From: a virus | Strand: one strand, 5' to 3' | Virus record (IMG/VR): IMGVR_UViG_3300043469_000941 | Span: 1-30,946 of that record | Length of the DNA stretch: 30,946 nucleotides | Shown here: positions 142 through 21,611 of the stretch, one piece after another | How positions within the stretch are numbered: the stretch's first letter is position 1 | How the letters are laid out: the number at the start of each line of letters is the position of its first letter | Notes under the pieces: model-generated | Databases searched by the model: none | What the model was told of the DNA's origin: nothing | The model's input: only the letters and a program-made list of their open reading frames with translations | Translations under genes and position numbers: made by a program

Positions 142-1944
142 TTATCGTCTATAATTTTTGCCCTCTATTCCATAAACGGGGTTAGTCGGTAAAAACCCGT
201 TATAATCCATGTCGATTGGAAGCAATGCCACCAGTTCATCGTTTTTCACGCGGTAACCCATCTTAGCCGCTTTTGCTACTGCGATACGCTGGGCATCGTT
301 AGCGAGTGGGTTTATTCCTTTGGCATTAATGAACGTTTCCTTTCGCCATGCATGGTTGCAATTTCCTCCGCCCTTATAAAGCCATATCGAATAATAATCG
401 GTTCCATTTGGCCCCCATTTTGGGTTTACCGCTTTATTTTCCATGGCCTCGATATCCTCTTTTCGGTAAAGTTTATCGGCCGCCAGCATTTTAGCGCAAA
501 ATGGGCGATTACTCGAAGATCTTCCAAAGTAGCGGTAGCGAGTCATAAAGGTAACGCCCGCGTAATTGGTTTCGTCTTGATCGCTTGGCGCCATCGCTTT
601 TGCCGAACCTGTGGAAACCGCCAGTTCGTGCGCCTCGATTTTCAATAATTCCTCGTTTTCGAGATCGTCATTCTCGTAGTCTACCTCGTAACTATCGATT
701 AAGATATAACCCTCGGGCGCATCCTCACCGAGGGCGATTAATTCCTCGGCAACCTCCGAACTCAATTCGACATTTTCCCCCTCAGCGGAGCAACAATCCT
801 TTTTTTTTTCAGCCTCAAATTGGGCGGCGAGCGCTGGCGTTACCGCCGTGGCCACTTGCATTTTTAGAGGGGTGTTTGGTACCACGGTTATTTTGATGCC
901 GGGCATTTCAAATGACAAAACCTCTTCAAACGCTTTTGATATTTTGCGTTGAGCGGGCTCGATAACCTGATTAGTGAAAATCTCAAGGCCAACCGCCATT
1001 TCGTCTTTATTCGAACCGAATCCCGTAGCGACATCGCGAATTCCAAAAAGTAAAGGAGTGGTTACGCGGTGCGCTACCATTATAAGCGAGGTCGATTCGG
1101 TGCTCAAAAATTGGTATTGCTTATCGGCATCAGAAAGCGGAAAGGTTATTATATCGGGTTTCGGCGTATCCCTCTCGTTGAAAGTCATTATAAACTTACC
1201 CGCGTTTTTTGCCCCTGTTAACTCACGCTCCCAATCGCGTTTGATGTCGTTTTGCTGGTCGGGGTCGGGCGCACCCTGAAACATCGAAACAATAAAGGAA
1301 GGCATTAAGCCATTGACGATATTGTTGATGTGATAAACGCTGATTTCCTTTGCGAGTTCAATCGAATTAATCGCCGAGTAATAATCGGGGCGCGGGTAAA
1401 ATTGACCGCTGGTGTAATTGAAACAGTAATAAATTTGGCGAGGTTCCTCGCTCTTTTTCGCCACGTTGTAAAGCGGGATAAATTCAGGCTTATTCCTTTT
1501 GCGCTTTGGAGCCGCCCAATCATTCGAATGCCATACGCCCGTAATTTCTTCATCTTCCCCACTCACTCCGAGTCTACATTCCTCGAATGGAATATGGCGC
1601 AACCTCGCCACGCTCTCGCGGTCGTAGGTGTATATAACCTCCATGTAAAAGCCGCCGTATTTTTTGTAGTCATGGGCGCAACCATAAAAAACCTCGTAAG
1701 CATCGAGCTCGGTTAAGCGGCGGTTGTAAACGCCAGCCTCGAGCGATTTGCCCGCTATCATATCGCCAATGGAAATACAAAGCGAGCCATGTACCGCGCC
1801 CGTTTGCGCGAGCTCTCGGAGGTACTGGGGGAAAAGATTGTTTACCCCGAAATTCACCCACCCGCCGCGATCGGTTTTCTCGGCTGAACTTATAACCGTG
1901 TAATCGGCGAGCTTCACACTTACCGAGCTTTTGTATTTATCCAT
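142..1944 (-). CDS. Portal protein with C-terminal MuF-like domain
   Basis: The 600-aa product looks like a portal protein: it forms the dodecameric ring at the capsid vertex through which DNA is packaged. Residues about 1-390 resemble portal proteins of Bacteroidota phages, including a region near 300-345 rich in conserved-looking residues (STSLIMVAHRV..PLLFGI). An acidic linker (about 390-460) leads to an extra domain from about residue 465: RYRYFG, an F-C pair (C483), YRKEDI, Y-SIWLYKGGGNC-H-W (C529, H531). That pattern matches the C-terminal module of Mu gpF-like head morphogenesis proteins, which usually sits in a separate protein. The start overlaps the upstream gene by 8 nt. Portal identity is recognised by similarity; the domain assignment is less certain. 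Confidence 0.8.
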   Translation of the reverse strand: MDKYKSSVSVKLADYTVISSAEKTDRGGWVNFGVNNLFPQYLRELAQTGAVHGSLCISIGDMIAGKSLEAGVYNRRLTELDAYEVFYGCAHDYKKYGGFYMEVIYTYDRESVARLRHIPFEECRLGVSGEDEEITGVWHSNDWAAPKRKRNKPEFIPLYNVAKKSEEPRQIYYCFNYTSGQFYPRPDYYSAINSIELAKEISVYHINNIVNGLMPSFIVSMFQGAPDPDQQNDIKRDWERELTGAKNAGKFIMTFNERDTPKPDIITFPLSDADKQYQFLSTESTSLIMVAHRVTTPLLFGIRDVATGFGSNKDEMAVGLEIFTNQVIEPAQRKISKAFEEVLSFEMPGIKITVVPNTPLKMQVATAVTPALAAQFEAEKKKDCCSAEGENVELSSEVAEELIALGEDAPEGYILIDSYEVDYENDDLENEELLKIEAHELAVSTGSAKAMAPSDQDETNYAGVTFMTRYRYFGRSSSNRPFCAKMLAADKLYRKEDIEAMENKAVNPKWGPNGTDYYSIWLYKGGGNCNHAWRKETFINAKGINPLANDAQRIAVAKAAKMGYRVKNDELVALLPIDMDYNGFLPTNPVYGIEGKNYRR

Positions 1945-5325: not shown

Positions 5326-7638
5326 TTATAAACGGCTCAAGTCCTCAACTTTCGAACGGGCTTCCATGCTCGATGCAATATCGGAGGCCAAAACGTAAGC
5401 GGGTTGGATTTGCCCCGGTTGGTTGTCAATGCCTAAGTTTCCAAGTGGGTTAAATTGCGGAACGCCACTCGATGCAACGCCAACTGAAGCCAAATCCCCA
5501 CCGCCCCCGAGGCCGCCTGTTGAGGTGTTATTTCCACCGCTCGGAGCTGGACTCGAGAAAGTGGTGGCCTTAATCTTTGCAATGTTCGCCAAACCCGCCG
5601 CGATGGCCGCCGCCGCCGCGATTGCCCCGCGCACTACCGAGGTAGGGTCACCGGGAATAACCTGTGAGGCGTAAGCGCTCGTAGCACTTTGATAAGTGTT
5701 AACCGATGTTTGCGCGATTTGGAGCGCCTTATTACGTTGGAACGCTTTCTTTTGGCTCGCTTCACTTTTACCCGAAAACGCTTCATTCAAAGATAGGAGC
5801 GTTGAAATGCCATCGGCCGCCGATTTGGAAACCATGTCGCTGGTTTTCATAAAGGCATCGAGTTTATCTTGTTGCGCTTTGTCATCAGCGGCCTTTTCGG
5901 CATCGCGATACTCCTTGTTTATTCGCTCGATTTCCTCGTTTCGTTCGGTTGTGAGTTGAGCGGTTAGCGTGGCGTTACCCTGAGCGATTAATAATTTCGC
6001 ATCGTACTCAGCCGTTAAATCTTGCAACTCTTTCGCCTTCCTCGCTTCATTTGCCGAAAGGTTACGAATGCGAATTTCCTCCGAGAGCGCGAATTGTTGA
6101 TCCTCGAGTTTAATTCGTTCCTCGTTGGCCTTTGCCGCGGCGGCCGCGTTATCCTCGGCGAGCTTTGCATCGGCCGCCTCCTGAGCCGCTATTTCATCAG
6201 CCGTGTATTTATCGCGTATGGCTTGGCGGTCGAGGAATTGTTGCTCTTCGAGTTGAGTAATGAGCTCGGTATTTTTACCCGCTTTCTCAACTAATTGCTG
6301 GTACTTTAACTCAACCTGTCGCAATTCGCGATCCTCAGCGCTGAGAGTATTTTGAAAACGGGTTTCCTCGGCTTGCTTTATCGCATCAGTTACCTCGGCC
6401 TCGCGAGCCTTTCGAGCCTCGGCCGCTTGCTTTGCCTTTTCACGCGCTTTCTCAGCCGCTTGCTCGGCTTTCTCGAGCCTCTTTTCTTCCTCTTTTGCCG
6501 CATCCTCGCGCGTTTTTTGAACGGCGGCGGCTTCCTCTTCAGCCGCCTTAATTGCGGTTTCGGTGTTTTGGTCGATTAACTTTTTTCTCGCCGCGATTTG
6601 GTCGGCGGTTAGCTTCACGCCCTTTTTTTCGAGCGCGTTTATATCAGCGATTAGCTTGTTATTATCGGCGATCTCTTTTTGACGATACTCAGCGTTTACG
6701 GCCGCGACATCGCCACCCGTTTTTTGAGCGTTGGCAACCGCCAAACGGCGAGCGTTGTCGAGAGTCTTTTGTTTGTCCTCAAGATTACCAATCGCCCCAT
6801 CTACTGCATCAGCGGCGGCCACGGCGGTTAAGCCGATGGCATCGGTAAAACCTGTTATTGCATCCTTTACCGCACCGATTACCGCACCGATTACCTCGAA
6901 TGCAATCCCGAGGGCGGGCACCACGTTGGCGAGTTTATCAAAGTTGGTAATGAGTAACGCCAGCACCGAGCCAATCAAAAAAATCGGGTTCGTTAAGAGA
7001 GCCTTACCGAGTCCAACAATCGATTTACCAAAATCCCCCGCGCCCTCGCTGGCGCCTTTAAAATTCAGGCCTTTAATATTTTTGCTCAGGCCATTAATGC
7101 TATCGGCGGCACCGCTAAAATCGAGTTGGCCGAGGCGGCTCGTTAAATTCCCGAGGTTGTTACCGAGGCCCTGTAATGCTGGCCCCGCGTTGGCAGTTAT
7201 ATTCTCGTTAAAATCAGCCTGTGCGTCTTTCGCTTGCTCGAGCCGATTAACAAGCGCTCGGTATTCGTCCGATGTCTTATCGAGCCGCGTGGTTTGGAGT
7301 TCATTCGTGAGCTCCTTAATTTGCTGGCGAAAATTCTTAACAGGCTCGCTTGGAATCGCACTACCAACGCCAGCCGATTGGGCTTTTAATTCCTCGAATG
7401 ATTGGCTCACAACTTTAGCCGAACCTCCGAGCTCTTTGTACTGAATCGCCAAATCAGCCCATTCAGCCGATTTCGGGTCGAGTTGGCCGAGCTGAGTCTT
7501 TAATTCACCCAGTTGTTTAATCCAACTTTTGGAAGCATCGCCCGCCGTGTTTATCTCATTACCTAACTTGTTTATTTTGGTAATCGCCCCCGAGTCATCG
7601 GCGGTAACGGTAATAATTATGTTCGAACTTTCAGCCAT
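5326..7638 (-). CDS. Tail tape measure protein
   Basis: The 770-aa product is the longest alpha-helical protein of the genome and has the tape measure layout: N-terminal coiled-coil-like region (GNEINTAGDASKSWIKQLGE), a central hydrophobic segment (about residues 205-275, NPIFLIGSVLALLITNF and IGAVIGAVKDAITGF) that is likely to insert into the host membrane, a long charged helix rich in A, E and K (about 285-590), and an Ala/Gly-rich C-terminal part. It sets tail length and leads DNA ejection. At about 1.5 angstrom per residue it predicts a tail of roughly 110 nm. It lies after the small 59-aa gene, overlapping it by 8 nt. No lysozyme or peptidase domain is seen. Confidence 0.85.
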   Translation of the reverse strand: MAESSNIIITVTADDSGAITKINKLGNEINTAGDASKSWIKQLGELKTQLGQLDPKSAEWADLAIQYKELGGSAKVVSQSFEELKAQSAGVGSAIPSEPVKNFRQQIKELTNELQTTRLDKTSDEYRALVNRLEQAKDAQADFNENITANAGPALQGLGNNLGNLTSRLGQLDFSGAADSINGLSKNIKGLNFKGASEGAGDFGKSIVGLGKALLTNPIFLIGSVLALLITNFDKLANVVPALGIAFEVIGAVIGAVKDAITGFTDAIGLTAVAAADAVDGAIGNLEDKQKTLDNARRLAVANAQKTGGDVAAVNAEYRQKEIADNNKLIADINALEKKGVKLTADQIAARKKLIDQNTETAIKAAEEEAAAVQKTREDAAKEEEKRLEKAEQAAEKAREKAKQAAEARKAREAEVTDAIKQAEETRFQNTLSAEDRELRQVELKYQQLVEKAGKNTELITQLEEQQFLDRQAIRDKYTADEIAAQEAADAKLAEDNAAAAAKANEERIKLEDQQFALSEEIRIRNLSANEARKAKELQDLTAEYDAKLLIAQGNATLTAQLTTERNEEIERINKEYRDAEKAADDKAQQDKLDAFMKTSDMVSKSAADGISTLLSLNEAFSGKSEASQKKAFQRNKALQIAQTSVNTYQSATSAYASQVIPGDPTSVVRGAIAAAAAIAAGLANIAKIKATTFSSPAPSGGNNTSTGGLGGGGDLASVGVASSGVPQFNPLGNLGIDNQPGQIQPAYVLASDIASSMEARSKVEDLSRL

Positions 7639-12845: not shown

Positions 12846-13106
12846 TTATATCTCGGTTAAAAATATCGTGTATGCGGTCGATGGGTTAGCGATTAGGAGC
12901 TCGGCAAATCGCATCGCTTTTGTTGGATCAATAAGCGCCTCGCTCACGCGGTTACGATTAACCTGAGCGGTATCGTCAATGGTTGGCCACGTTAACGAAC
13001 CGTCCTCGTTTTCGGTTGGCTCAACGTAATCGGAGCCCAATTTGAAAACGATTACTTGCCCGTTATTATTGACCCAAAAATTATTTGCATCTATTGTGTA
13101 TGTCAT
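12846..13106 (-). CDS. Small tail-module protein of unknown function
   Basis: The 86-aa protein begins MTYTIDANNFWVNNNGQVIVF and ends in SEALIDPTKAMRFAELLIA followed by AYTIFLTEI. It is acidic, has no cysteine or membrane segment, and starts with an ATGA overlap on the stop of the large chimeric tail protein. It abuts the gp10-like gene. I do not recognise the family; the tight coupling to tail genes suggests a minor tail or joining role. Confidence 0.55.
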   Translation of the reverse strand: MTYTIDANNFWVNNNGQVIVFKLGSDYVEPTENEDGSLTWPTIDDTAQVNRNRVSEALIDPTKAMRFAELLIANPSTAYTIFLTEI

Positions 13107-15619
13107 ATTGTTAGTAATACTTGGTTATTTAAAATCGCGGCGCTATTGGTGCTCGCATTATTTACGAATTTCACCCCCATTAAATCGCCAACCGCAACGC
13201 TCACCGAGTTAACCAAATCCGTAAACACACCAGCGGCCGAACCAGCCGCAATAGTTATGGTCAACGCTTGGTCGACACTATTTTTTCGAAGCGTGCAAAC
13301 GAGCGAGCCCGTGGCTGGTTGCGCCGTGTTGGTCATCACATAAAAACGGCTTAGCGTGCCAGCGGTTACCATTGGCGTACGGCGTGCCGCATCGGAGGCG
13401 GCGTGGTTAACTGATCCAGCGAATAGAGATCCGAATCGGGTAACTCCAGCAGGCACAATATCGCCGTTTGTGAATTGTCCTAAAATCGAAACCGAACCCG
13501 TTCCAAGTCCTAAATCCGTTACCATCTCGGCGGCCGTGCGAGCGGTAACCGAGTTATCGGCGTTCACTCGAAGGAACGTTATTGCGTTTGGATTGGTAAG
13601 CGTGGCGAGCGCATTGCCCACCGTGGTTAAACCGATGGCGTTTTGTTTTGCGTTAAACGCGAGCCAATCGGTTGTTGAAAGTAAGCCCCGATTTGCCGCC
13701 GAGGCCGTGGGTAAATTGAACGTGTGCGTTGAACCCACCGAGCTAATACCGAAATCGGTTCCCGCCGTGCCTACTGCGAGGTTTTGAACCTGAGCCGTTA
13801 AGCCATTAATCGCATTTACCCCCGTGCTCAGCGTGGTAATAACTTGCGATAAATGAGAATCCTCCGTGTGTAGTTTAAGCGTGCGACCTGAGGTCGTAAC
13901 GAACACCCGCAAAGCCAATCTATCAGTTAATGCCATTGTGGTTGGCGGTACCGCCAGCGCCGTAAAATATGCATCGATAACCGTGCCTTGAGTAATACCC
14001 TCGGGCGTTGCGACATCGGTAGCCAGTAGCGTGAAAGCGGCCCCATCGTACTTATACAACTCAACGTAAAACGAGGGCGAACCGCCACTTGAGGACGCGC
14101 TGAAATAAAGCTCCAAATTGAAATTACCGCCCGGTATTAATAAAACATTCGGGTCGTTTGCATCAGTAATAAATTGAGCGATTAATCCATTACCCGCCGC
14201 GTTGGTTCGCGTGAAATCGGTTCCCGCGCCAAAGACGGCCGTTTTGCTCATTTGATAGTAAGTCGAACCGCCAATGGTACCTTGATTAATTGAGCCATTG
14301 AGATAGTAGCTAACTGATGAGCCGCCGCCGCCTGTCGTTGGAAAGTTGGCGAGTTGGCCATCCCCCCGAACGTATTGAGTGGCGAGCCCCGCCGCGCTTA
14401 CTGCGAGCGTTCCCGCACTCGTAACAGGTGAGCCCGCCACCGAGAAAGCGGGGGGCATGCTTAACCCCACCGAGGTAACACCGCCCGGCGCTGGCGTACT
14501 ATTAACCCAAGCCGTGCCGTTCCACGTTAACACTTGGCCGTTAGTTGGTGAGGGTGCGTTTACATCGGTGAGGCTATCGAGTGTAGTGGGTATAGTTGGT
14601 TTATTCAGTATTTGAGCCAAACCGCTTGAAGCGTTCCAATCACTATTCACTTGCGCGGCTGGAATCGTTGGTTTGTTTAAAATCTCAGCGAGTCCACTCG
14701 ATGCATTCCAATCCGAATTCACTTGAGCCGCTGGTATTGTGGGCTTATTCAAAATTTGGAAATCGCCGCTTGTTGCGTTCCAATCAACGGGCGTTTGCCG
14801 TAACCTGAAGCCAGCGCCAACGAGTGACCAGTAAAGAGCATTTGTTGGGAGTAACGCATCGTTATTCGCAATGCACTCGTATACATTACCGAGGTACCAA
14901 ACGCGATCGCCAATTACATACTGGTTACCCGTGGCCGTGGTGTGGTTAACGTTAAACTCGGTTGCGACATCATCGCCGCCACCGCCACCGCCCGTTGAGC
15001 TAATTGTGATTTCGCCAAAGCCGTTATCGACAATCGTAATGTTCGCGCCCTGTTGAAGATTCAATAAAGTTTGATCGCCGTTAAGCACTCCATTGGTTTC
15101 GAGAATGACCCCAGTTCCACCCGCGCCCGTTCCTCCCGAACCTGAGCCACCAACCGACCAATCGGCTGGGATATCACAGGCCGACCAATCCCACGGCACC
15201 GATAACGTGAGAGCCAAATTAACGCCTGTTAAGGTTTGGGAATATTCCTGAATAAAAACCTCAATCGATGGCGAGCCCTCGAGCTCCACGGTTGGCCCGA
15301 ATAGGACGAGGCCGTTTTGAATCTCGGCTATTAAGTCCTCGGCGAGTTTAATGCAGTCGCTGATAACCTCGCGTTCGTATTCGGCTGGCGTTTCTTTGTC
15401 ACGCGGCAAATCGGCGAAAGTGATAATGAACGTGTAAAGCCGCGTGCCCTGTCGCGGTTCAACCTCAACGGGGAAAACGTGCATCCATGGAAAGGTTAAC
15501 CCCTTTTCGATGTCGATATTGGAAGGGTGCCCGTGAGTGAATCCCTTAATCAAAAAGTGACCCTCGGCAAAAGCCTTGAATCTTTCGATTAGTACGTTAT
15601 AACTTATCTGAGTAATCAT
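13103..15619 (-). CDS. Chimeric tail protein: tail-completion-like N terminus fused to fibre
   Basis: The 838-aa protein seems to be a fusion. Residues about 1-155 resemble a small globular tail-completion family of Bacteroidota phages (FAEGHFLIKGFTHGHPSNID, then RLYTFIITFADLPRDKETPA and EREVISDCIKLAEDLI). A Gly/Ser linker (GGSGSGGTGAGGTG) leads to a fibre: a chitin-binding-like short segment (VIGDRVWYLGNVYECIANN), three 24-aa repeats centred on NKPTIP (from residues 279, 303 and 327), a region typical of fibre shafts (QVLTWNGTAWVNSTP, AAGLATQYVRGDGQL) and a beta-rich C terminus that may bind the receptor. Its ATG overlaps the stop of the frameshifted chaperone product. Confidence 0.68.
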   Translation of the reverse strand: MITQISYNVLIERFKAFAEGHFLIKGFTHGHPSNIDIEKGLTFPWMHVFPVEVEPRQGTRLYTFIITFADLPRDKETPAEYEREVISDCIKLAEDLIAEIQNGLVLFGPTVELEGSPSIEVFIQEYSQTLTGVNLALTLSVPWDWSACDIPADWSVGGSGSGGTGAGGTGVILETNGVLNGDQTLLNLQQGANITIVDNGFGEITISSTGGGGGGDDVATEFNVNHTTATGNQYVIGDRVWYLGNVYECIANNDALLPTNALYWSLVGAGFRLRQTPVDWNATSGDFQILNKPTIPAAQVNSDWNASSGLAEILNKPTIPAAQVNSDWNASSGLAQILNKPTIPTTLDSLTDVNAPSPTNGQVLTWNGTAWVNSTPAPGGVTSVGLSMPPAFSVAGSPVTSAGTLAVSAAGLATQYVRGDGQLANFPTTGGGGSSVSYYLNGSINQGTIGGSTYYQMSKTAVFGAGTDFTRTNAAGNGLIAQFITDANDPNVLLIPGGNFNLELYFSASSSGGSPSFYVELYKYDGAAFTLLATDVATPEGITQGTVIDAYFTALAVPPTTMALTDRLALRVFVTTSGRTLKLHTEDSHLSQVITTLSTGVNAINGLTAQVQNLAVGTAGTDFGISSVGSTHTFNLPTASAANRGLLSTTDWLAFNAKQNAIGLTTVGNALATLTNPNAITFLRVNADNSVTARTAAEMVTDLGLGTGSVSILGQFTNGDIVPAGVTRFGSLFAGSVNHAASDAARRTPMVTAGTLSRFYVMTNTAQPATGSLVCTLRKNSVDQALTITIAAGSAAGVFTDLVNSVSVAVGDLMGVKFVNNASTNSAAILNNQVLLTI
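14582..14785 (-). repeat. Three 72-bp coding repeats in the tail fibre (NKPTIP repeats)
   Basis: Units start at 14785, 14713 and 14641 (minus strand), exactly 72 bp apart, encoding DWNATSGDFQILNKPTIP, DWNASSGLAEILNKPTIP and DWNASSGLAQILNKPTIP, the first two followed by AAQVNS. The third unit is partial. At the DNA level most synonymous positions differ between units 2 and 3. Confidence 0.85.
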
Positions 15620-16376
15620 TTCAACTTATATGCGTTTTTCATTATTCGTGCTTGCTCGCTATGGTAATCCCTCATATAACTGAGGTGAGTGAATACCGAG
15701 CTCGCGGCCTTATCTAAAACCAATTCGTGTTTGGTGAGGTCGTTACCGCTCACCGATTCGAGGATGTGAAACCAGCCCCACCGCCCGAGGCCTGAGGGGG
15801 TATAATCGTGCTCATTTCCTTCTTGAGAATCGAGTCCAAATAAACCAGCGAATTGTTTGCTAATTCCGCGCCGATACTCGAAAAAAAAACCAACGCCCCG
15901 TTCACGCGATCTAAGGTAAGAGCCATAATCTCGGGCATGTACCGCGCCGTTTTATCGAGGTCGTATTTTTCAATATTGTAATAATCCCCCACTTGCTCGG
16001 TGACAGGTCGAAACATCACGGCCATCAGTCGCGGTAACTCGGTATAGTCGCACGGCTTACCCTCGCGCCAAATCGTTTGGGCGAGCTGGTCAAGGTCAAC
16101 GTGTTCGCGAAAGGTCATTGAGTTAATATCAGGAAGGAAGCCGAGGCGTTTACCGTTCACGTTAATAATGCGCTCGAATTGACCCGCACTCGAATCGATT
16201 ACCTCTTCGAATAAAGTGATAATCGTTTGCACCGAATCGGCTTTTAAGAGCTCGCAGTATTCGCGGCTTTTGTTTATGATTACCATGACCCGCTCGACAT
16301 CGTCCTCGGCGGTGTGGTAAGCCATGAACTGGCTGAGCGTTATTTGCGAGCATTCGCCCGGTACCTTCAATTTCAT
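15616..16376 (-). CDS. Tail assembly chaperone, long form made by -1 frameshift (GT-like)
   Basis: After slipping one base back in the T9 run at 15889-15881, the frame continues 88 codons beyond F165 and ends at 15616, giving a 253-aa product. Its extension contains GLGRWGWFHILESVSGNDLT followed by KHELVLDKAASSVFTHLSYM, a pattern (W-G-W-F-x-I-L, then a helical L-S-Y-x-R-D segment) that recalls C-terminal domains of tail chaperones in Bacteroidota phages. Its TGA overlaps the ATG of the next gene (ATGA at 15616-15619), which fits a translated frame. In lambda, G and GT recruit tail tube subunits to the tape measure. The T9 is the best slip site, but the frameshift is inferred, and an indel error in the homopolymer cannot be excluded. 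Confidence 0.72.
15750..16376 (-). CDS. Tail assembly chaperone, short form (G-like)
   Basis: The zero-frame product is 208 aa and starts with an ATGA overlap on the small terminase gene. N-terminal text ITLSQFMAYHTAEDDVERVM, a later GKRLGFLPDINSMTFREHVDL and a helical DKTARYMPEIMALTLDRVNG recall tail chaperones placed before tail structural genes. After V163-F164-F165 the zero frame reads SSIGAELANNSLVYLDSILKKE and ends in a low-complexity ASGGGAGFTSSNR tail. No catalytic motif is present. A shared N terminus with two C termini matches the G/GT scheme. The gene lies far from the tape measure, with tail genes between, which is less usual. Confidence 0.7.
   Translation of the reverse strand: MKLKVPGECSQITLSQFMAYHTAEDDVERVMVIINKSREYCELLKADSVQTIITLFEEVIDSSAGQFERIINVNGKRLGFLPDINSMTFREHVDLDQLAQTIWREGKPCDYTELPRLMAVMFRPVTEQVGDYYNIEKYDLDKTARYMPEIMALTLDRVNGALVFFSSIGAELANNSLVYLDSILKKEMSTIIPPQASGGGAGFTSSNR
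15881..15889 (-). promoter_or_regulatory. Candidate -1 ribosomal slippery site (T9)
   Basis: On the coding strand codons 163-166 are GTT TTT TTT TCG, which contains the canonical heptamer T TTT TTT in the right phase for a -1 slip. The -1 frame is open from here to a stop at 15616. A second, poorer candidate is the C5 run at 15800-15796 near the zero-frame end. Confidence 0.6.
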
Positions 16377-16726
16377 AGGTTCGAACTGATTGTGATTATT
16401 GGCTGGTTATCCGCTCCCGTGATTTCTTGGCGTTCAACGTAACCGCGCTTTTTGCCTTTGGTCTTCATGTAAAAGATTGTGGCCGCCGTATCGCCCTTAT
16501 CGATTAACCCGTGCAACTTGCCCTCGGCGAAATCCAAAACCATATCCTCAACGCTCTCAACCGCCGCTTTGTACTCAGGGTCGTTTTTCAACCAGTAGTA
16601 ATGAATGTCACGGCTGAGCCCGATGGCGGCGGCCGCTTTGGTTACGATACCGAGGTTAGCCGCGAGTGATTCGAGGAAAGCCTTTTTTTTGATGTTGAAT
16701 TGTGCGTATCTATCCTCCATGCTCAT
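16373..16726 (-). CDS. Terminase small subunit (putative)
   Basis: The 117-aa protein has an N-terminal helix-turn-helix (about residues 20-45: ANLGIVTKAAAAIGLSRDIH, then YYWLKNDPEYK) followed by a helical segment EDMVLDFAEGKLHGLIDKGD, and FYMKTKGKKRGYVERQEIT. This layout matches small terminase subunits, which bind the packaging site and load the large subunit. It lies on the strand opposite the large terminase gene and about 3.6 kb away, between tiny genes and the tail chaperone. The ATG is preceded by the ATGA overlap with the 34-aa membrane gene. It could also be a transcriptional HTH protein. Confidence 0.7.
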   Translation of the reverse strand: MSMEDRYAQFNIKKKAFLESLAANLGIVTKAAAAIGLSRDIHYYWLKNDPEYKAAVESVEDMVLDFAEGKLHGLIDKGDTAATIFYMKTKGKKRGYVERQEITGADNQPIITISSNL

Positions 16727-20122: not shown

Positions 20123-20323
20123 ATGGGAAAGCATCGGAAACGATTCGAGGAAATGACAACGGACGAGCTCAGAGGTGAGCGCTGGAGGCTTTACTTTTCC
20201 AACCCGAAAACGGAGGCGGCCATCTTTCAGAAGGGCAAAGATTTGGCGCGAATTAATACCGAACTATATCAACGAACGGGCAACGATGCCTATTTACTAT
20301 ACCGTGTAGGCGATGGCTATTGA
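20123..20323 (+). CDS. Small hypothetical protein before large terminase
   Basis: The 66-aa protein (MGKHRKRFEEMTTDELRGER) is basic, helical, and has no recognised motif. It begins directly after the DnaA-like stop and overlaps the large terminase start by 11 nt, so its translation is coupled to terminase. Nothing in it indicates enzymatic activity. Confidence 0.55.
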   Translation: MGKHRKRFEEMTTDELRGERWRLYFSNPKTEAAIFQKGKDLARINTELYQRTGNDAYLLYRVGDGY

Positions 20324-21611
20324 ATTCCTTCCCAAACAAAACGATGCGCTCGATGCGCTCGGACTCGATTCACCCGCCGAGGTAGTCCTCTTCGGAGGAG
20401 CCGCTGGCGGGGCGAAATCTTTTACAGGTTGCGCGTGGCAAATAATGAGGCGGCTGAAATACCCCGGCACTCGGGGGCTCATTGGACGATCGAAACTCGA
20501 TACCCTCAAAAAGACCACGCTCAAAACGTTTTTCGAGGTTGCGGGGTTGTTTGGACTCGTGGCAAATAAACACTATCAGTTTAACGCCCAATCGAACGTT
20601 ATTACTTTCTCGAATGGCTCGGAAATCATTTTAAAAGACCTGTTCGCTTACCCCTCCGACCCCTCTTTTGATTCCCTCGGCTCGCTCGAGATTACTGATT
20701 CATTTATTGACGAATGCTCTCAGGTGAGTAAAAAGGCAATCGACATCGTTCGAAGCCGTATCCGATACCGACTCACTCAATACAATCTAAGCCCGAAAAC
20801 CTTGCTCACTTGCAACCCATCGAAAGGCTGGCTTTATAACGAGTTTTTCGCCCCATTTCGTGCGAATCAATTGCCCCCTCATTTGGTATTCATTCAATCC
20901 CGCGTGGCTGATAACCCACACTTACCCCCTACCTATGCCGAGACATTGGCGAGGTTGCCCGAGGTGGATCGTAAACGATTATTAGAGGGCGATTGGGATT
21001 TCGATGAAACGTTGGACGCGCTATTTACCACGGACGATTTACTGAGGTGCTTTCGCCCAGCGAGCGAAACGGGCGAGTTATACATCACGGCCGATATTGC
21101 GCGCCTCGGAAAAGATAGAACCGTTATCGCCCTTTGGCGTGGCTTGTCGCTGATTCAAATAACCGAGCTCCGAAAAAAGAAAATAGACGAAACGGCGGCG
21201 GTAATTCGTGAGATGGCCGATTACCACAAAGTAAAACTCTCTAATGTTATTGCCGATGCTGATGGCTTAGGCGCGGGGCTCGTTGATGTGCTCAAGTGCC
21301 GCGAGTTTCGTAACGGCTCAAGAGCCACCAAGCCCGAAAGGTTCGTTAACCTGAAAGCCGAGTGCTTTTTTAAACTGGCCGAACTGGTGGAATTAAACCG
21401 AATCACACTACCAAACCAGCACCGCGACACAATCGTTAAGGAGCTCGATTTAATACGCCGAAAAAACCCCGAAGGCGATGGCAAACTCGCGGTTACGGGT
21501 AAAGAGGAAATAGCCCGCACACATGGAATGAGCCCCGATTACGCCGATGCCGTGGCAATGCGTATGTATTTCGAGCTCTTTCCCAATTACGGGCGTTATT
21601 CGTACGCCTAA
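20313..21611 (+). CDS. terL: Terminase large subunit
   Basis: The 432-aa protein is the DNA-packaging motor. Its ATPase domain has a Walker A-like FGGAAGGAKSFTG (residues 27-39, K35), a Walker B FIDE (131-134) with E as catalytic carboxylate, and a coupling-motif-like TCNPSKGWLY near 167-175. The C-terminal nuclease part has acidic residues typical of the RNase H fold: D261 in ITADIARLGKD, D315/D317 in IADADGLG, and SPDYADAVAMR near the end. It is encoded with early genes on the plus strand, away from the small subunit gene in the leftward late block. Length agrees with the family. Confidence 0.9.
   Translation: MAIEFLPKQNDALDALGLDSPAEVVLFGGAAGGAKSFTGCAWQIMRRLKYPGTRGLIGRSKLDTLKKTTLKTFFEVAGLFGLVANKHYQFNAQSNVITFSNGSEIILKDLFAYPSDPSFDSLGSLEITDSFIDECSQVSKKAIDIVRSRIRYRLTQYNLSPKTLLTCNPSKGWLYNEFFAPFRANQLPPHLVFIQSRVADNPHLPPTYAETLARLPEVDRKRLLEGDWDFDETLDALFTTDDLLRCFRPASETGELYITADIARLGKDRTVIALWRGLSLIQITELRKKKIDETAAVIREMADYHKVKLSNVIADADGLGAGLVDVLKCREFRNGSRATKPERFVNLKAECFFKLAELVELNRITLPNQHRDTIVKELDLIRRKNPEGDGKLAVTGKEEIARTHGMSPDYADAVAMRMYFELFPNYGRYSYA

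Follow-up and report, generated by a model that had tools for sequence, protein, structure and literature searches.

The minus-strand gene at 15750-16376 of this viral sequence raises the question of whether a run of nine T residues within it is a programmed slip site, at which the reading frame is shifted by -1 to give a second, longer protein. The window analysed here (30,946 nucleotides) is the whole of IMG/VR virus record IMGVR_UViG_3300043469_000941. Frameshifts in tail-chaperone genes are well known, and an initial annotation had proposed that this gene encodes such a chaperone. We have asked whether the T run is functional, what moves the reading frame there, and what the two products are likely to do.

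The zero-frame open reading frame is a 208-codon gene (208 residues in the short product). Its codons 163-166 read GTT TTT TTT TCG, within which the T run (T9; 15881-15889, minus strand) places the heptamer U_UUU_UUU in frame across codons 163-165. The -1 frame read from the run (FEYRRGISKQ...GRWGWFHILESVSGND...KLK) is open for 88 codons, starting with TTC and closed by a TGA (15616-15882, minus strand). This TGA, at 15618-15616, overlaps the ATG of the next gene at 15619-15617 in the sequence ATGA. In most relatives, too, the next gene begins close by, its ATG lying between -14 and +3 relative to the -1 stop, an arrangement consistent with the -1 frame being translated in full. The predicted long product after the slip would thus contain 165 + 88 = 253 residues, with 43 zero-frame residues swapped out. 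The positions of the run, the extension and its stop are as the initial annotation had described them, and its remark on the unusual distance between slip site and zero-frame stop is also borne out, this being about 130 nt in the window and a median of 172 nt, up to 271 nt, across relatives. A run of nine T residues is in itself unremarkable in the window, where three are found against 6.4 expected in shuffled sequence, and the case for recoding therefore rests on conservation.

To collect relatives, we queried viral contigs with the zero-frame protein and an alignment of it, with several extensions and with the P12024S protein; one contig from a genome collection was added. The search patterns were back-translated and codon-degenerate and never required the T run, so the relatives found were not selected for T runs. 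This gave 378 loci in total, of which 373 showed both domains in six-frame profile searches, and 221 are distinct. Clustering at 60% amino-acid identity divides the 221 into 22 groups, and at 50% into 11. Scans of GTDB genomes returned no contig with the gene in the first scan and a single one in the second. The gene, with T9, also occurs on contig PAPR01000049.1, which has been assigned to a Pseudooceanicola MAG; this host assignment could reflect faulty binning.

In every one of the 221 distinct relatives the -1 frame, as counted from the first part, carries the extension. None of the 221 carries the first part and the extension in one open reading frame, and no single-frame relative is present among the 378 loci. 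The run is T9 in 219 of the 221 and T10 in the other two. The initial annotation had suggested looking for relatives in which a T8 or T10 run accompanies one continuous frame; we sought these and found none, the frames of the only T10 relatives (L363 and L090) still being split by -1 and still needing a shift. All 220 sequences aligned at the run have T at each of its positions, including three synonymous third positions, while the third positions 5' of the run vary. A change of the eighth T to C would be silent in both frames in 151 of the 220, yet this T too is invariant. The relatives include the cultured Nonlabens phages P12024S and P12024L (~26% identical), in which the extension again follows T9 in the -1 frame (read directly in P12024S) and the two parts are annotated as two genes, 38 and 39. 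The annotated gene P12024S_39 (JQ823122, 23663-23830) is actually the -1 extension of P12024S_38. One relative, L355, has a TAA inside the zero frame ~110 nt 5' of the run, and is either an error or a defective copy.

The pattern of substitution changes at the run. In the window's own group the third codon position of the zero frame varies most 5' of the run, this periodicity is mostly lost in the overlap, and beyond the zero-frame stop it is the third position of the -1 frame that varies most. We also applied a two-frame substitution test to 87 independent close pairs from across the family. Where either frame stands alone, its synonymous changes occur at ~60-64 per 1000 weighted sites. In the 24 codons 3' of the run, the class of change that is synonymous in the -1 frame but not in the zero frame drops to 13, and the reverse class to 19; since both classes are reduced, both frames are under selection there. 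The zero-frame nonsynonymous/synonymous ratio is 0.10-0.16 upstream of the run, where the test detects no -1 frame constraint. Both frames are constrained from +10 to +82, and in all six windows past +82 the -1 ratio is 0.07-0.22 and the zero frame is not clearly constrained. Avoidance of zero-frame stops in the far tail was set aside as evidence because pairs had been grouped by equal stop position. These comparisons indicate selection on the zero frame as far as the run, then on both frames over ~25 codons (15807-15880 in the window, minus strand), and thereafter on the -1 frame alone. The zero-frame tail (15750-15806, minus strand) is weakly constrained or unconstrained in its own frame. 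As zero-frame constraint fades past the dual-coded stretch, the last 15-19 zero-frame residues in the window are probably free of it.

From this comparative evidence we conclude that the T9 site is functional. The extension is universally in the -1 frame, most relatives have no usable internal start, and the C5 run at 15796-15800, which the initial annotation had offered as a weaker alternative slip site, is not conserved; recoding at T9 is thus very likely. The C5 candidate can be rejected, many relatives being without it: zero-frame ends such as IIRPQ, ITHPQ and ILPQAD lack C5, and the -1 frame is already selected between T9 and C5. It is very improbable that the extension is instead a separate gene translated from its own internal start without any shift. 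P12024S does have an in-frame ATG there and is annotated with two genes, but no start codon for the extension is conserved among 114 sequences. In 75 of the 114, the window included, neither ATG, GTG nor TTG occurs in the -1 segment examined, which ran to codon +45, and selection on the -1 frame begins at the run rather than at a start codon. Homopolymers are prone to errors, but it is scarcely credible that faulty sequencing or assembly, or a broken gene, is the explanation when 221 distinct, independently assembled sequences and cultured phages share the run and its frame relation, with selection seen on both frames. The proposal of programmed -1 recoding at T9 is therefore well supported by the conserved run, the fixed frame relation and the switch in selection at the run.

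Slipping by the ribosome and by RNA polymerase would yield the same protein, so the sequence cannot decide between them. We somewhat favour the ribosome, because the well-studied tail-chaperone frameshifts are ribosomal (PMC5009743). A heptamer of the X_XXY_YYZ type, T_TTT_TTT, is present in frame and conserved in the zero-frame phase. In other genes of these phages T_TTT_TTT is depleted more strongly in frame (observed/expected 0.62) than in the other phases (0.85); such phase-dependent avoidance is as expected if ribosomes slip there, and leans towards the ribosome. Counting against the ribosome, U_UUU_UUU is reported to slip far less readily than A_AAA_AAG in E. coli (PMC5009743), and pseudoknot-free folding gives no energy z-score signal for a downstream RNA stem (mean z ~0, three windows, n=45), a stimulatory feature that is frequent at ribosomal sites but not indispensable. 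Alternatively, RNA polymerase may slip on T9 (programmed transcriptional realignment), giving transcripts with one U more or two fewer that would be read into the -1 frame. We regard this as a credible explanation, if a less probable one. Nine is the length of A or T run at which slippage is avoided in many bacterial genomes (PMC1088944), and every one of the 221 distinct relatives has T9 or T10, in line with the approximately nine or more A or T residues that characterise transcriptional realignment. All nine T residues are invariant, including the position at which C would often be silent in both frames, although seven suffice for ribosomal slipping, and this leans towards the polymerase. 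An RNA structure would not be needed, in keeping with the lack of stem signal, and long A/T runs are increasingly avoided in the other genes of these phages (observed/expected 0.51 for A9 and 0.31 for A10). Against this, the outer two T residues can be explained by coding (a hydrophobic codon before, and F or L in the -1 frame after), the avoidance of T7 varies with reading phase, and the window's own portal gene (142-1944, minus strand) has an A10 run in its coding strand, at 800-809. The fuller proposition that a large unannotated phage family makes a chaperone-like pair by polymerase slipping on an invariant T9, with ~25 dual-frame codons, we hold only tentatively.

Our preferred reading, which we consider on balance probable, is programmed -1 recoding, most likely ribosomal, that yields a gpG/gpGT-like pair. 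On this reading the 208-residue zero-frame protein would be the main product. Most likely the ribosome moves back one base on U_UUU_UUU, where Phe-tRNA would re-pair in both sites, and a minority 253-residue protein would result, carrying the 88-residue helical extension in place of the last 43 residues. By analogy with lambda gpG/gpGT, the short form would coat the tape-measure protein and the long form would recruit the tail-tube subunit. We infer the slipping agent, the product ratio and the chaperone role from the comparisons presented here.

The zero-frame protein is modelled by AlphaFold2 with a pLDDT of 77, and the T run encodes part of its last long helix (residues 155-191), so both products would continue this helix with different sequence. 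The extension, a WGWxH domain, is predicted to be helical at low confidence; its model, with a pLDDT of 59, was excluded from the fold search. The zero-frame protein belongs to phrog_32199 and the extension of related members matches phrog_38404, both of unknown function; for the family of either part we found no Pfam match and no named PHROG that was matched consistently. A fold search of the PDB with the zero-frame model returned no match. Against viral models, the best Foldseek matches are mostly unnamed phage proteins, with weak matches to annotated tail assembly chaperones of Kitkat (E 0.044) and ctCpR1 (E 0.074). Another weak fold match, gp10 of Flavobacterium phage 6H (L378, 10047-10927), carries T_TTT_TTC close to its stop, and 305 nt of unannotated sequence follow the gene, but its -1 frame runs straight into a TAG.

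The gene lies between small-terminase-like and tail genes, all on the minus strand. The preceding small-terminase-like gene (16373-16726; phrog_4044, E 1.3e-6) overlaps the start of the recoded gene in an ATGA, and the next gene (13103-15619) encodes a tail-fibre-like protein of 838 residues with near-repeats (NKPTIPAAQVNSDWNASSG) and glycine-rich linkers. From there the order on this strand continues with genes for an 86-residue protein, a neck/tail-completion-like protein, proteins of 426 and 1073 residues, the tape-measure protein (5326-7638; phrog_1538, E 3.1e-14), a protease, head genes and the portal. The tape-measure gene is therefore not adjacent, lying ~8 kb downstream with five genes between, and it is far from the recoded gene in P12024S too. 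The order in that phage (terminase, recoded gene, neck-like, a relative of the 426-residue protein, phrog_38559, tape-measure-like) is broadly the same. In the window the large terminase gene (20313-21611) is on the strand opposite to the portal, capsid-region and tail genes.

Judged by its position at the front of the tail genes and by the weak fold matches, a gpG/gpGT-like tail-chaperone pair is our best functional guess, made with moderate confidence. It is possible, though we think it rather unlikely, that the recoding is real and the pair is some other structural or assembly protein, for instance a packaging or tail-end factor, a question that cuts across that of ribosome or polymerase. 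The gene adjoins terminase genes in the window and in P12024S, the tape-measure gene is distant, and we did not find a confident chaperone fold or family match. A gene that opens a tail cluster and gives a two-frame product with a helical extension is, however, typical of tail chaperones, and such fold matches as there are include annotated ones. Of the initial annotation's proposal, then, the recoding is supported, whereas the chaperone identity is putative. Since the gene is apart from the tape-measure gene and its fold matches are weak, we liken it to gpG/gpGT, with moderate confidence that it works in the same manner, and do not file it as a member of that family.

We did not find a published account of this recoded family in the literature searched, which left subscription papers largely out of scope. 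As far as that literature shows, the family is new, as are its invariant T9, its dual-coded stretch and the great distance of the slip site from the zero-frame stop. The result unites two PHROG families of unknown function in one gene with a likely role, and phage genomes, including those of the cultured P12024S and P12024L, are seen to carry one recoded gene annotated as two. The nearest cultured relatives of these phages infect a flavobacterium. The prediction tool PRFect, which according to its authors gives preference to sites close to the zero-frame stop, would tend to miss sites such as this one. More than 200 natural sequences kept at nine T residues provide a test set for ribosomal versus polymerase slipping.

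The families phrog_32199 and phrog_38404, and genes 38 and 39 of P12024S/L, correspond to the first and second parts of the same family, annotated as separate genes with the shift unnoted. The lambda-type gpG/gpGT chaperones are made with a -1 frameshift (Xu et al. 2004, as cited in PMC3711429 and PMC10885494). Like them, the present gene specifies a short protein and a -1 extended form overlapping its end, with a slippery heptamer in phase, and is retained in the tail gene cluster across very divergent phages. It differs from them in its U-only T9 site, in the ~25 dual-coded codons, in lying away from the tape-measure gene, in that we found no sequence similarity to known chaperone families, and in the distance from slip site to zero-frame stop, which averages 26 and 36 nt in two published collections (PMC10885494) as against ~130 nt here. 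The exact length of nine and the dispensability of RNA structure recall the programmed transcriptional realignment of Thermus dnaX and IS elements (PMC1088944). Unlike in those systems, the fixed phase of the run here also forms a ribosomal heptamer, and the gene belongs to a phage structural module.
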